Shown in pieces: positions 51,010 to 56,436 of a stretch of 64,000 bases of DNA. Under the pieces are notes generated by a model, which was not told where the DNA came from, did no database searches, and worked only from the letters and a program-made list of their open reading frames with translations. Position numbers and translations under genes: made by a program. The first letter of the stretch is position 1; each line of letters begins with the position of its first letter. Location: the NCBI GenBank assembly GCA_000987045.1, contig LAKY01000073.1, forward strand, positions 21,498 to 85,497, given 5' to 3'. The DNA is from Clostridiales bacterium PH28_bin88. GTDB lineage: Bacteria > Bacillota > PH28-bin88.

Positions 51010-52257
51010 CTAAGCAGACTCAGTTATTTTGACAACCGAATAACCCAAACGCTGTAATAGTTTAACCGCATGTTGTTCTGACGAAGCTACGAAACCGGGT
51101 TTGCACTGCGACTTCTCATAGAGACTCGGATTGAACAATTCACCGGTTGAAAGCATGTGGTAAATAGCTGTCAACATCATTCGAGCAATGGCGATAATGG
51201 CTCTCTTGTGGCCGCGACGGCGCTTAATCGCTTCATAGCGGGTACGATAGTGCGGGAAGTCTTTATCCTTGATAGCTGCGTTGGCACACTGAACGAGTAA
51301 GGGCTTGATGTAAACGCCAGCACGACTGATGCGAACCGATTTCTTCTTGCCGGCACTCTGATCGTTGGAGGGAGCAAGTCCAGCCCATGAACAAAGGTGC
51401 TTGGCTGAGTGAAAAGCGGCCATATCGGCACCGATTTCAGAGAGAATGACAAGTGCCGAAAGTTGGCTAATACCAGGAACAGACTGGATAATCTTTATAG
51501 CACCGGAATAAGAGACAGCCAAGTGCAGGGCAGTTGCTTCTATCTGAGCGATATAGCTTTTAATAACATCCATGTGGCTTAAACAAAGAGTGATTTTACC
51601 AGCCTGAACTTCGCTAATGGTGCCGTCAATGGCTAAGGCAATATCGTCTTGTTTCTTAAGCATCGAGCCGTGTAAAAGCGGCCGAAAATCAAAGTCCTGA
51701 TCATCAGGATGTTTCAACAAATGCGAAAGAATAGCCGAAGCACTTTTGCCAAAGGTATCGGACACCACACTGGAAAGCATGATATTAGAAACCGTCAGGG
51801 AGTTTTGCACCCGGTTCTTTTCACTGGACGCAAAGGAAACCAGTTTGGAACGGTAGCGCAGCAAGTCGCGAATTTCGCGAATATCTGCTGGAGGGATGAA
51901 ACTACCTGGGACCAGCCCATGTTTGTGGAGGTCTGCAATCCAAACGGAATCCTTTTTGTCAGTCTTCTTGCCGCGGATCGCCTTGACATACTTCGGATGT
52001 GCCAGGGTGATCCGGCAGGAAGGTTCCAGGATGTTGTAGACAGGAATCCAGTACTTGCCAGTGGACTCCATGCAGACATGCACACACTGATTATTTGAGA
52101 GCCACAGCGCTAAAGCTCTAAGATCTCGGGTAAAGGTGGAAAAGCGTTTGGTTTGGTAGGTTGTGATATTTTCGCGATCAGTGGTCGCGATGGTAGCAAC
52201 GACGAAAGTTTTGTGCACGTCGATGCCGCAACAGATAGGGTACACAATTTTGAGCAT
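51010..52257 (-). CDS. IS110-family transposase
   Basis: CCGIDVHKTFVVATI; CMESTGKYWIPVYNIL; KKTDKKDSVWIADL; VPGISQLSALVILSEIGADMAAF. Confidence 0.92.
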   Translation of the reverse strand: MLKIVYPICCGIDVHKTFVVATIATTDRENITTYQTKRFSTFTRDLRALALWLSNNQCVHVCMESTGKYWIPVYNILEPSCRITLAHPKYVKAIRGKKTDKKDSVWIADLHKHGLVPGSFIPPADIREIRDLLRYRSKLVSFASSEKNRVQNSLTVSNIMLSSVVSDTFGKSASAILSHLLKHPDDQDFDFRPLLHGSMLKKQDDIALAIDGTISEVQAGKITLCLSHMDVIKSYIAQIEATALHLAVSYSGAIKIIQSVPGISQLSALVILSEIGADMAAFHSAKHLCSWAGLAPSNDQSAGKKKSVRISRAGVYIKPLLVQCANAAIKDKDFPHYRTRYEAIKRRRGHKRAIIAIARMMLTAIYHMLSTGELFNPSLYEKSQCKPGFVASSEQHAVKLLQRLGYSVVKITESA

Positions 52258-52353
52258 AAACACTCCCTCTCTCAGATGGTATAGTGGTCGCACAAGCATT
52301 GACTGCTCGCCCTCTATAAACAAAGGAGTTGTTTATACAAAGATAAATCTACG

Positions 52354-54262
52354 GTGCGCCAAGAAGGTTATGTAGTCGAGTGGGTGCGAATCCCACCTGG
52401 GAAAGGCCTAGCCAGCCACCAGTAGCGAGTCTTGGGAACTACTGAGTAATCAGTGGGACTAAGCGTAGACAGCGAGGTAGTAGGCCGAAAGCGAAAGCTG
52501 AAGGGATTGAGCCCCGAAATCATAAATTGGGAGGGCCGATGCTGTCGTAGAAGCATAAGGCAACACAGCGACCGCCGCAATGGCAAGGAGGTCAATGCAT
52601 CCCCGGGGTCAGAGACCTTGGCATGCTACACAATGCGATTGCATGACAACTTGGGAGATCCCCGCCGCCCTTCCGCAAGGGAGTATGACGGACAAGTGAT
52701 AAACACGAGGAAGTCAAACGGTTTAAGGCGGGGAAGTCGGATTGCTTCATAGTACCGATGAAAACTGGGAAAGCCAGCGGAGGGAAGGGAGCAACATGGT
52801 ATCAATCTTGTTAGGGAGACATTCACACACTAGGAGGTGACGAAGGAATGGAACCAGAACTGACAAGAATAGCGGAACCCACCAAAGGACAAGCGAAGCC
52901 GCGATTGACATCGCTGATACATCTCATTAATGCGGAGATGTTGAAAGCATGCCACGCGGAGCTCAAGGGCAACAAAGCAGTCGGAGTCGACAAGGTGACC
53001 AAAGAAGAATATGGGCAGAACCTGGATGCAAACATCGAGGATTTGCTGGGTCGCATGAAACGATGGGCATATCGACCGCTACCCGTACGACGCACGTATA
53101 TACCCAAAGCTGGAACAGACAAGATGAGACCGTTAGGGATACTCGCCTACGAGGACAAGCTGGTGCAAATGGCGGTCAGTAAGATACTGAACGGCATTTA
53201 CGAGGAGGAATTCCTAGACAATTCGTTTGGATTCCGACCGGGAAGAGGCCAACACGATGCGCTGAAACTGCTGGATTGGCTAATCGCCAATAAACCAGTC
53301 AACTACATTGTCGATGCCGATATCAAAGGGTTCTTTGACAATGTGGACCACGACTGGGTGATGAAGTTTCTAGGGCATCGAATAGCGGACACCAACCTGC
53401 TACGACTAATAAAGCGGTTTCTAATAGCGGGCATCATGGAAGATGGTCAGCTCCAGAAATCGGAAGTCGGCGTACCGCAAGGCGGCAATATCTCGCCGAT
53501 TTTATCGAACATATATTTGCATTATGCGTTAGACCTTTGGTTTGAAAAGGTGGTACGGAAAAGGTGCAAAGGAGCGGCATACATCGTCCGCTTTGCGGAC
53601 GACTTCGCATGTTGCTTCGAGTACAAAGAAGATGCGGAAGCCTTCCTCGGCCTACTGACAGAGCGACTAGCAGAATTCAAGCTGGAAGTGGCCGTGGAAA
53701 AGACGAAGATTTTAGCCTTTGGGCGAAGAGCGCACGCAGAGGCAAGGCGAGAAGGGAAGACCACCCATGGCACATTCGACTTCCTCGGTTTCACCCACTA
53801 CTGTAGCAAAAGCAGACATGGAAGATTCCGAGCAAAACGCCAAACGAGTAAAAAGAAGTTGAGGGCGAAGCTGGCCGAATTCACGGAGTGGATCAAGAAG
53901 AACCGCCATATGCCGATGCATGAAATCATGAAAATGGTGGAGAGCAAACTGAGAGGGCATTATCTTTACTACGGGATTACAGATAATTACCAAGCCATGA
54001 ACCGATACAAAAGAGCGGTAATTCGACTCTTGTTCAAGTGGTTAAATCTGCGTAGCCAAAAGAGAAGCTATACCTGGGAGCAGTTCAACAAAATAATCGA
54101 ACGCTTCAAGCTACCCAATCCCAAAGTAATGATAACGATATGGGAGCTAAGACTACCCTCTCTGTATATACCGTGAATGGTACTATGAAGAGCCGTATGC
54201 GCGAATAGTGCATGTACGGTTCTGTGGGGGGGAGCGGCACAAGGACACTATGCCGGTTCAAC
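52354..54262 (+). mobile_element. Group II intron
   Basis: 5' GTGCGCC; intron-encoded RT at 52848..54176; domain V-like GAGCCGTATGCGCGAATAGTGCATGTACGGTTC at 54190..54222 followed by a domain VI-like hairpin. Confidence 0.88.
52848..54176 (+). CDS. ltrA: Group II intron reverse transcriptase/maturase
   Basis: RT motifs IPKAGTDKMRPLGI, DADIKGFFDNVDH, GVPQGGNISPILSNIYLH, YIVRFADDFACCF; maturase-like region; no HNH at the C-terminus. Confidence 0.95.
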   Translation: MEPELTRIAEPTKGQAKPRLTSLIHLINAEMLKACHAELKGNKAVGVDKVTKEEYGQNLDANIEDLLGRMKRWAYRPLPVRRTYIPKAGTDKMRPLGILAYEDKLVQMAVSKILNGIYEEEFLDNSFGFRPGRGQHDALKLLDWLIANKPVNYIVDADIKGFFDNVDHDWVMKFLGHRIADTNLLRLIKRFLIAGIMEDGQLQKSEVGVPQGGNISPILSNIYLHYALDLWFEKVVRKRCKGAAYIVRFADDFACCFEYKEDAEAFLGLLTERLAEFKLEVAVEKTKILAFGRRAHAEARREGKTTHGTFDFLGFTHYCSKSRHGRFRAKRQTSKKKLRAKLAEFTEWIKKNRHMPMHEIMKMVESKLRGHYLYYGITDNYQAMNRYKRAVIRLLFKWLNLRSQKRSYTWEQFNKIIERFKLPNPKVMITIWELRLPSLYIP

Positions 54263-54540
54263 TAGGACACTGCGCCGAAAGGGGCAGGCACTGGGACAGT
54301 TGCTATGGATAAGGTGTGCGAGGCCGTCTCTCTACCCGACTGGTCGATGCCACACTTATTTGTGCTTGACCGGGCAGAGCGACACATATAAAAATGCGGT
54401 CTCCCCAAATAAGGGTAGGGTGACGCACTCACCTCCCCGTGCTCTGTAGTATACTTGCACGACCAATTAAATAATAGCGCACAGGCAACAATTTTCATGA
54501 CGTTTTGTGCCTGAGCGCAGCGAAAGGAATGGTTATAAAA

Positions 54541-54732
54541 ATGGATGAATACCTTCTTGTTGAACGCTCCCCAACAATAGAAGAGTTTAAAAAATTGCGC
54601 AAGGCGGTTGGATGGAGGACTTTAGAGACTGCAGCCACGGAAATCAGTCTGGGTAATTCCCTGTTCTCGATATGCGTAATACATAACAATGAAGTGATTG
54701 GTTGCGGTAGGGTGGTTGGGGATGGCGGCAAA
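54541..54732 (+). pseudogene. GNAT acetyltransferase N-terminal fragment
   Basis: MDEYLLVERSPTIEEFKKLRKAVGWRT...SICVIHNNEVIGCGRVVGDGG, then homology stops abruptly. Confidence 0.65.
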
Positions 54733-55032
54733 GAAGCACCGTGCCAAAACAATAAAGCAGCACGGTGTCCCGAAAACCACATGATAAATACTGGAAGAAT
54801 ACGTCAGAATGCATACAGCGTCAGAGTGTCAACAAGAAATACCGGCGAAAATGCTCTTCAGGCAGCCGTTTTGGTAACCTCATCCAAGGTATTGGCATAG
54901 GATATAGCAAATTGCACGCTAGGAGGTTTGAAGCAGTTACAGATTAAATAAATAAATAAAGAGAAGCATGAAGTAATAAACCATTGCACCAAACACGTGT
55001 TCGACCTAAAATGTTGGTAAGAGGTGGTGTCA

Positions 55033-55224
55033 ATGGAAAACTTGTTAACATCTCACCAGGTAGCAAAACTGTTGAACGTGTGGCCCCATACATTACGCCG
55101 ATGGGAAAAAGAAGGGAAGTTAAAACCCTTGCGCACACCCGGCGGTCACAGACGTTACAACGAGTCCCAGGTGATGGCTCTAATTGGCGAGCAGGAGGTG
55201 GCTGCCTGTGAAAACAACAGTTAG
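55033..55224 (+). CDS. MerR-type helix-turn-helix protein (IS607 TnpA N-terminal-like, no recombinase domain)
   Basis: MENLLTSHQVAKLLNVWPHTLRRWEKEGKLKPLRTPGGHRRYNESQVMALIGEQ. Confidence 0.85.
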   Translation: MENLLTSHQVAKLLNVWPHTLRRWEKEGKLKPLRTPGGHRRYNESQVMALIGEQEVAACENNS

Positions 55225-55780
55225 AGGCATCATCCTTCAACTCACAGAAGAACAACGAAGTAACCGGCGGGACAACAGCATCGGCGAAACCGCTGCCCTG
55301 GTGGTAGACATGGCACAGCAGTTGAACAGCCTCCTGGCTGTCGAAGACCTGGCCTTCAAAGACGACAAGACAGTAACAGCAAAATTCAACCGGATGAGCC
55401 ACAGCTTTGTCTGGTCCAAGTTCCTGCAGGCCGTGGAGCGGCGGGCAGCCAGGGAAGGGGTGCCATTGGTCAAAGTACCACCGCCGTTCACCACAGTAAT
55501 AGGCATCATGAAATACCAACAGCAGTACGGGATATCCAACCATCAAGCGGCGGCCTATACCATAGCCCGGCGGGGGTTGGGCATCAGCAAAGAAAAAATA
55601 CCAAAGCCCCTGATAGACAGATACATCAAAGACAAAGAGAATTTCTTAAGACTTCCCAACTGGAAGCAGTGGAGCGGAATAAATAGAGCGGCTGCCGCCG
55701 CGATCAAAAAACTAACCAAACAGGAGGTGTATAACCTGGTTTCATGGCAGTACTACAGAAAACAACTGATAGCAGGGTAA
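55208..55780 (+). CDS. Compact TnpB-related protein (190 aa; GTG start)
   Basis: AGGAGGTG SD; LAVEDLAFKDDK (RuvC-II-like), FVWSKFLQAVERRAAREGVPLVKVPPPFTTVIGIMKYQQQYGISNHQAAAYTIARRGLG; lacks N-terminal ~200 aa, RuvC-I and zinc finger. Confidence 0.7.
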   Translation: MKTTVRGIILQLTEEQRSNRRDNSIGETAALVVDMAQQLNSLLAVEDLAFKDDKTVTAKFNRMSHSFVWSKFLQAVERRAAREGVPLVKVPPPFTTVIGIMKYQQQYGISNHQAAAYTIARRGLGISKEKIPKPLIDRYIKDKENFLRLPNWKQWSGINRAAAAAIKKLTKQEVYNLVSWQYYRKQLIAG

Positions 55781-56074
55781 ACCCTTTGCCATAAAGTTTG
55801 CGGTAAGTACGGCACAGTACACGCGGTGAAAGGCTGCTGCCGTACAATTGAGAAGTGAGAGGCGAGAAGTGGGAAGTGAGACATAAGATCTTTTTTCTCA
55901 CTTCTAACCTCACACATCTCACCTCTCAAATAGGCGGTGGGTAACACCCCCTTCCGGGCAGAACGGATAACCGAAAGGTTAACGGCGGCGGTAAGCCACC
56001 CGGAACACAGGCGAGAGCCTGTGGTTCAGCAGTTGAATCCTGTGACACTGCCTCCCGTTAGTCGGCGGGAGAGA
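55781..56074 (+). ncRNA. Structured non-coding region downstream of the TnpB-like gene (omegaRNA-like candidate)
   Basis: Hairpins AACC-GAAA-GGTT, CACAGGC-GAGA-GCCTGTG, CTCCCG...CGGGAG, long-range TTCCGGG...CCCGGAA; GNRA tetraloops. Confidence 0.55.
55849..55928. repeat. Imperfect A/G-rich / C/T-rich palindromic element inside the structured region
   Basis: GAGAAGTGAGAGGCGAGAAGTGGGAAGTGAG...CTCACTTCTAACCTCACACATCTCACCTCTC. Confidence 0.65.
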
Positions 56075-56106
56075 AACCTGAATAAATCTGATTTGTTTAG
56101 GTTTTT
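56075..56106 (+). terminator. Putative terminator after the structured RNA
   Basis: AACCTGAATAAATC/GATTTGTTTAGGTT (two G.U wobbles) then TTT. Confidence 0.6.
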
Positions 56107-56124
56107 CAGAAACCAGGGTATCGA

Positions 56125-56436
56125 ATGTTCCCTATCAACATTGAGGGGCTGTTGCAACGGTTTAAGGAGGAGCTGTTTCGCTCGGCGGAGGAGTTACGCA
56201 GGCAGCAGGTTACCGGGTCTGATCCTCAAGGACAGGTAACCGTTGTGGTCAATGGAATGCTGGAGGTCCAAGCGGTCCGTCTGTCTCCTAATGCATACTG
56301 GCCTGACCGGCAGAGCGCCGAAAAATGCATCCTGGCTTCAATACAAAATGCCCTGGCCGGATCTCGACAAATGATTAAGGCCAGGGCGAAGGAGATCAGT
56401 AAGGGCCTGCCATTGGACCTTTCGGACCTGTTTTAG
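56125..56436 (+). CDS. YbaB/EbfC-like nucleoid-associated protein
   Basis: QGQVTVVVNGMLEVQAVRLSPNAY...AEKCILASIQNALAGSRQMIKARAKEISKGLP. Confidence 0.65.
   Translation: MFPINIEGLLQRFKEELFRSAEELRRQQVTGSDPQGQVTVVVNGMLEVQAVRLSPNAYWPDRQSAEKCILASIQNALAGSRQMIKARAKEISKGLPLDLSDLF

Follow-up and report, generated by a model that had tools for sequence, protein, structure and literature searches.

At positions 54927–56117 of the window (the window is the whole 64,000-nucleotide stretch of DNA that was analyzed) lies a decayed IS607-family element that is no longer autonomous. It sits immediately behind the GG in the AGGAGG of a ybaB-like gene. Our main reading, to which we give a probability of about 0.5, is that the conserved RNA of this copy bridges the element's own Shine-Dalgarno (SD) sequence to the start codon of the host gene. 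A wider proposal is advanced more tentatively, i.e. that a mobile family targets SD sequences and neutralizes its own insertion translationally by means of a self-closing RNA with a replacement SD, an arrangement kept ahead of essential genes in different species. The RNA together with the insertion habit forms a strong pattern that is apparently undescribed. The apparent behavior of the RNA, insertion exactly between SD and start codon with an SD of its own, was not anticipated by the first-pass annotation of this DNA. The features of the locus are as follows.

54921–54926, + strand: host SD AGGAGG, now the left flank of the element (target site); other copies have a matching layout.
54927–56117, + strand: complete IS607-family element of 1191 bp without target duplication, from end alignments.
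54984–55012, + strand: left-end promoter TTGCAC, 17 nt, TAAAAT, with the palindrome AAACACGTGTTC (54991–55002) between −35 and −10.
55033–55224, + strand: TnpA remnant of 63 aa, a helix-turn-helix (HTH, to ...LIGE) fused in frame to the last ~10 aa of TnpA, from alignment by eye to the TnpA of relative L156 and from HMM coverage.
55208–55780, + strand: TnpB remnant of 190 aa, the first 16 aa joined (at about 55255/55256) to the RuvC-II-to-C-terminal part, from HMM and alignments.
55722–55729, + strand: element-encoded SD AGGAGGTG at the 5′ foot of the RNA, anti-SD pairing −14.2 kcal/mol.
55735–56117, + strand: conserved structured RNA (putative omegaRNA) closed by stem P1, from covariation and a covariance-model family.
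55735–55743, + strand: P1 5′ strand CCTGGTTTC, 93.3% of cells paired in about 27 copies.
55848–55929, no strand assigned: 82-bp palindromic repeat inside the RNA, a dispersed repeat lacking in the G001 copy.
56052–56071, + strand: P8 hairpin CTCCCG-TTAGTCGG-CGGGAG, 5 of 6 pairs changed on both sides.
56109–56117, + strand: P1 3′ strand GAAACCAGG, which is the right end of the element.
56118–56124, + strand: 7-nt spacer from the right end to the start codon; 7–8 nt is the commonest spacing among 94 copies.
56125–56436, + strand: downstream host gene of the YbaB/EbfC family (PF02575, E = 3.5e-13).

The left end is given by alignment with the element of G001, a genome of the same family, which starts at AGGAGG/TT. 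On the right, similarity ceases at AACCAGG, at 0 to +3 nt in most copy pairs. The insertion displays a GG core without target duplication (AGGAGG/TT...AACCAGG/flank), as also seen from empty atpD sites. Rejoining of positions 54921–54926 to 56118–56124 gives AGGAGG-GTATCGA-ATG for the YbaB-like gene. No empty counterpart of the window insertion was recovered; in the two relatives the YbaB-like gene is represented by remote paralogues only. The last hairpin of the RNA had been called terminator-like, a reading that finds no support here: the RNA abuts the start codon of the YbaB-family gene at 56125. Other elements are found nearby: a group II intron at 52848–54340 (reverse-transcriptase ORF at 52848–54176, domain V/VI at 54188–54340 as an RF00029 match) and a predicted IS110-like transposase ORF at 51010–52323 on the minus strand. 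Judged, like the IS110-like ORF, from inspection of the sequence only, a truncated acetyltransferase-like ORF at 54505–54900, just left of the element, is probably a pseudogene.

About 94 non-redundant copies, many of them protein-free, were found across Clostridia and Bacillota with a covariance model and a motif scan. Their right ends are AGAAACCAGG or close variants, and pairwise similarity halts there. In 78 of the 94 copies a start codon that opens at least 50 codons lies 4–12 nt past the right end, with a peak at 7–8 nt, compared with 12–23 of 94 at shifted downstream control positions. Only 26% of all AGGAGG sequences in these loci lie at such a spacing from a start codon. Where the left flank could be delimited, its last letters are in most cases AGGAGG or something close to it. 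The genes hit encode GroEL, MetK, CTP synthase (pyrG), L28 (rpmB), L32 (rpmF), S18 and AtpD, in addition to the YbaB-family gene of the window. In one family the atpD site is empty in 12 species, most of which display GCAAAGGAGG-TACGGA..ATG, and is occupied exactly after the SD in four species. The empty sites thus prove the insertion point. Sixteen copies do not obey the rule, several of them from one metagenome-assembled genome, FK5.bin106. The FK5.bin106 copies L089, L102, L105, L144 and L149 are not followed by a recognizable start codon and may reflect relaxed targeting or contig artefacts. No description of such SD targeting was found in the openly accessible literature that the search covered.

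The window RNA begins within the mini-TnpB ORF and finishes at the right end of the element. Structured RNA had been noted in some 300 nt downstream of the ORF; the structure is far beyond chance, but the RNA is longer (55735–56117) and starts inside the ORF. Across the family its length is 250–380 nt. The region downstream of the mini-TnpB is 82%–84% identical in G001 and in C56, a protein-free copy in the same genome. The RNA belongs to a widespread family. Covariance model R1, built from four copies, picks up 24 places, spread over 11 of the 399 genomes. Scanning with a two-block DNA pattern gave 79 loci in GTDB genomes, which belong to Pelotomaculum, Desulfosporosinus, Desulforamulus, Desulfoscipio, Clostridium, Tissierellia and others, and gave no match among viral contigs; left out of the 79 pattern hits are the chance-like Niastella L122 and Methanosarcina L135, and also L154 at a contig end.

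Alignment A4 of 33 copies has 54 pairs with 88.4% of cells paired, and 33 of the pairs have changed on both sides. Its covariation is 0.304 versus 0.160 in shuffled alignments (0 of 500 shuffles reach the observed value) and versus 0.06–0.09 in slid alignments, a control biased in favor of the structure since the structure is partly derived from the same sequences. P1 has a pairing probability of 1.0 in the window copy and is predicted in 30 of 36 copies; it varies mostly on one side and its covariation support is weak. The CCTCC within P8 was considered as an internal guide that pairs with the SD in the manner of an intron P1 and was rejected: the covariation of P8 is with the strand it pairs with in the hairpin, and the CCTCC itself shows no conservation. 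The 82-bp repeat is a GAGAAGTGAG-type palindrome, parts of which are matched at many places in the same genome. A protein-free lineage is present in several genera (L108, L115, L116, L121, L124, L128, L095, L048, L062, L086 and L157), parallel to the TnpB-bearing lineage. It has its own 5′ RNA domain, ACATCCGATGATGCGTCGCAAAGACACGCGGTGAAAGTCGGGCGCGG, and many of its copies have a leader ORF of 2–4 codons.

Rfam gives no match for the window RNA or for 14 related loci, other than the neighboring group II intron and an unrelated T-box. The layout is that of TnpB omegaRNAs: a conserved structure that runs from the 3′ end of tnpB to the right end of the transposon and stops where host sequence begins. 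Unlike these, the present RNA is large, GNRA-rich and without an Rfam match. It is a putative omegaRNA of the family, and as such would bind and guide TnpB.

A strong SD is present about 7 nt 5′ of P1 in nearly every full-length copy, whether coding or not. The mean anti-SD pairing is −14.3 kcal/mol for the element SD (36 copies), −7.3 for the right end and −5.7 for the background, i.e. the rest of the RNA. The native atpD SD, at −13.9 kcal/mol, is comparable to the element SD. L104 is an exception, with an element SD of only −7.6.

The element in the four occupied atpD species encodes no protein. Invariant positions in these species comprise 17 of 18 in the element SD block, 14 of 15 in the P1/P7 5′ strand, 27 of 28 in the P7 3′ strand plus P8, and 12 of 12 in the spacer, compared with 49% at four-fold sites of atpD. 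The flank that holds the old host SD is 61% invariant and the central part of the element 34%. The element SD and stems are selectively kept at atpD while the old host SD drifts. Shrunken atpD copies (~135 nt) retain only P1, P7, P8 and P10. A second example is a gene that we take, from our own reading of its protein, to be ypeB. In four species its SD-like sequence before P1 is kept despite changed letters, and the inner RNA domains are deleted in two of the four.

In the proposed mechanism, the RNA would fold, close via P1, and loop itself out of the path from SD to start codon. The P1 3′ strand lies 4–12 nt upstream of the host start codon, and ribosomes that bind the element SD would reach this codon across the base of the fold. 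We infer such use of the element SD by ribosomes. Even essential genes might thereby tolerate an insertion in their ribosome-binding site. T4 genes 38 and 25 offer a precedent: structure in the RNA that separates SD from AUG moves a distant SD close to the start codon and shortens the effective spacing (PMC3014915). The T4 structures are short hairpins with a spacing of 22–27 nt, whereas the present case is a mobile RNA domain of 130–380 nt. The bridging reading has weak points. With P1 formed, ~14 unpaired nt (7 + 7) remain between SD and start codon, and 18 at atpD, which is above the optimum. The right end CCAGG is a weak SD at ideal spacing and could serve instead. Several protein-free copies have a P1 probability of 0.0–0.3 together with an SD of about −10. 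L197 lacks one of the P1 pairs and seems to have evolved an SD at its right end.

The second of these points is shared by the best-surviving alternative, an ordinary decaying IS607/TnpB element whose RNA is only an omegaRNA, either kept for guiding TnpB in trans or still present because the copies are young. Insertion would be tolerated because a weak SD remains in the right end CCAGG and the gene is transcribed from the left-end promoter. The RNA does start inside the tnpB 3′ end and stop at the insertion boundary as omegaRNAs do, and the AGG of the right end lies at the old SD spacing with the anti-SD pairing given above. Like IS607-family insertion sequences, the present elements have a TnpA with MerR-type HTH and resolvase domain, a TnpB, a GG target core and a right-end RNA. 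They differ in that the target is essentially the SD before a start codon, the RNA has its own SD, many copies are protein-free, and the TnpB clade is without a zinc finger and mostly without the RuvC-III Asp. We judge the ordinary-element explanation rather unlikely: four species have kept the element SD, P7 and P8 at atpD in an element that encodes no protein, and the strong SD at P1 occurs in nearly all copies, coding or not.

It is improbable that the element is an IStron-like self-splicing intron of a new kind, whose excision as RNA rejoins AGGAGG to the start-codon context. Group B IStrons (IS607 plus a group IA2 intron; BcISt1, CbISt) have IS607 TnpA/TnpB, are inserted behind GG-ending sites, and carry U as first base and GG at the 3′ end (PMC4227781). 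The first base is likewise U in most present copies; a closing inverted repeat, frequent loss of ORF A and ORF-less copies are further likenesses (PMC4227781). Joining of AAAGGAGG to TACGGA would also restore the native atpD site. However no group I or group II intron match is found in the RNA; a group I core gives no Rfam hit in the window copy or the 14 loci. The ~135-nt atpD copies hold only the four stems listed above. IStrons are 58% intragenic (PMC4227781), whereas 83% of the present copies are just before a start codon. A location before start codons and not inside genes is expected if the copies are unable to splice or are protected at initiation. Compared with group B IStrons, then, the present family differs in its lack of a detectable group I intron, its insertion before start codons and its proposed protection at translation initiation.

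The layout of the left-end promoter, −35 and −10 with a palindrome that resembles the Gram-positive LexA box, recurs in 10 or more related copies, of which TTGACACGAACACCTGTTCTATTTTATAAT is an example. The palindrome GAACACCTGTTC and variants are found at the left ends of the window copy, L048, L062, L095, L108, L115, L116, L121, L124, L128 and L154. Judged from this resemblance, the element may be SOS-controlled. The element could be kept as a portable promoter or leader, possibly under SOS control, that alters regulation of the host gene with its structured 5′ UTR. This explanation has little probability, since several retained copies (atpD, ypeB) have no left-end promoter any more and lie within operon neighbors or directly behind them.

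The two reading frames of the window copy overlap by 17 nt, as first noted. The 63-aa product is an HTH of the IS607 TnpA type, also as first noted, with a MerR match (PF00376, E = 1.3e-13), and its serine-recombinase domain is deleted; of the 187 positions of the IS607 transposase model NF033518, only the first 51 are matched. As only the HTH is kept, the window TnpA is filed as a remnant. Both domains are intact in the relative L156. The 190-aa product matches TnpB model NF040570 at positions 264–357 of 389, which agrees with the first description of it as only the RuvC-II-to-C-terminal part, and it is 71% identical to the full-length G001 TnpB over the C-terminal part. Everything before RuvC-II is absent. 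The first ~20 aa were said to be joined directly to this part with ~200 aa missing; the junction is real and follows residue 16, but residues 1–16 abut a residue equivalent to ~317 of the G001 and L156 TnpB, so that about 300 are gone. Breakpoints read from the intact Pelotomaculum copy L156 are ...LIGE to QEAAACENHG in TnpA and residue 16 to about 316 in TnpB. A CxxC zinc finger was thought to have been lost in the deletion, however the inspected intact relatives are also without one. Most intact relatives have His at the position that we take to be the RuvC-III Asp of canonical TnpB.

The 190-aa protein has matches in 52 of the 399 genomes searched, all from the phylum. The majority are TnpBs roughly 450–580 aa long, whose alignments to this query start near residue 16, the deletion junction. 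A conserved mini-TnpB family was considered and rejected: orthologues with the same deletion, which the first-pass annotation had proposed to look for, were not found in the 52 matching genomes of the 399, in plasmids, phages and viral contigs, or in related loci, and an exact-peptide search of genome contigs recovered none. Other short copies (L101, L073, L078, L140, L138 and L072) are truncated independently at different breakpoints, so that protein has been lost repeatedly from copies that kept their 3′ end. TnpA remnants with only an HTH are also found in G001, where one precedes the full-length TnpB, in D. putei and in L113. TnpA cut down to the HTH beside an intact TnpB is seen in L113, L097 and L002, which represent several genera and different deletions. 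The deletion in D. putei L097 is out of frame, therefore no claim is made that in-frame retention of the HTH is selected. In the intact members L156 and L109, TnpA and TnpB are both complete and accompany the RNA (NF033518, E = 2.3e-60 in L156). Neither G000 nor G001 yielded an intact IS607 TnpA, and copies of the window type may be mobilized in trans.

The pairwise dN/dS of the TnpB part is 0.07–0.13, and changes private to the window copy number 11 non-synonymous versus 5 synonymous. The frame was thus under constraint for a long time, and this constraint may since have eased. The mini-TnpB is an ordinary decayed transposon protein. A non-autonomous IS607 deletion derivative that kept its 3′ RNA, one of the options first offered, is supported, while the other, a domesticated nuclease-dead guide-RNA regulator, is not. 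What had been named as evidence against the first-pass idea holds by half: the protein is a unique internally deleted copy, but the RNA does display strong conserved covariation. Descent from TnpB and loss of RuvC catalytic residues are shared with TldR proteins, but the window protein has nothing before RuvC-II, is not near full length, and belongs to a transposon copy inserted in a host SD, not to a conserved locus among non-transposon genes with orthologues of this architecture. That the HTH and mini-TnpB act with the RNA on host genes as a TldR-like regulator is therefore very improbable, even with both frames intact, TnpB in-frame constraint and recurrent HTH-only remnants in its favor, since the deletion has no orthologue, the private changes hint at relaxation, and TldRs keep guide RNA and DNA binding (PMC13418256).

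Transposons that survive before atpD, groEL, metK and ribosomal-protein genes must not block translation. If the bridging reading is true, it would provide a second route, besides splicing, by which transposon RNA protects the host, a translational counterpart of the self-splicing IStron. It would also tie a TnpB guide-like RNA to ribosome recruitment and would predict a portable leader that moves ribosome-binding sites.
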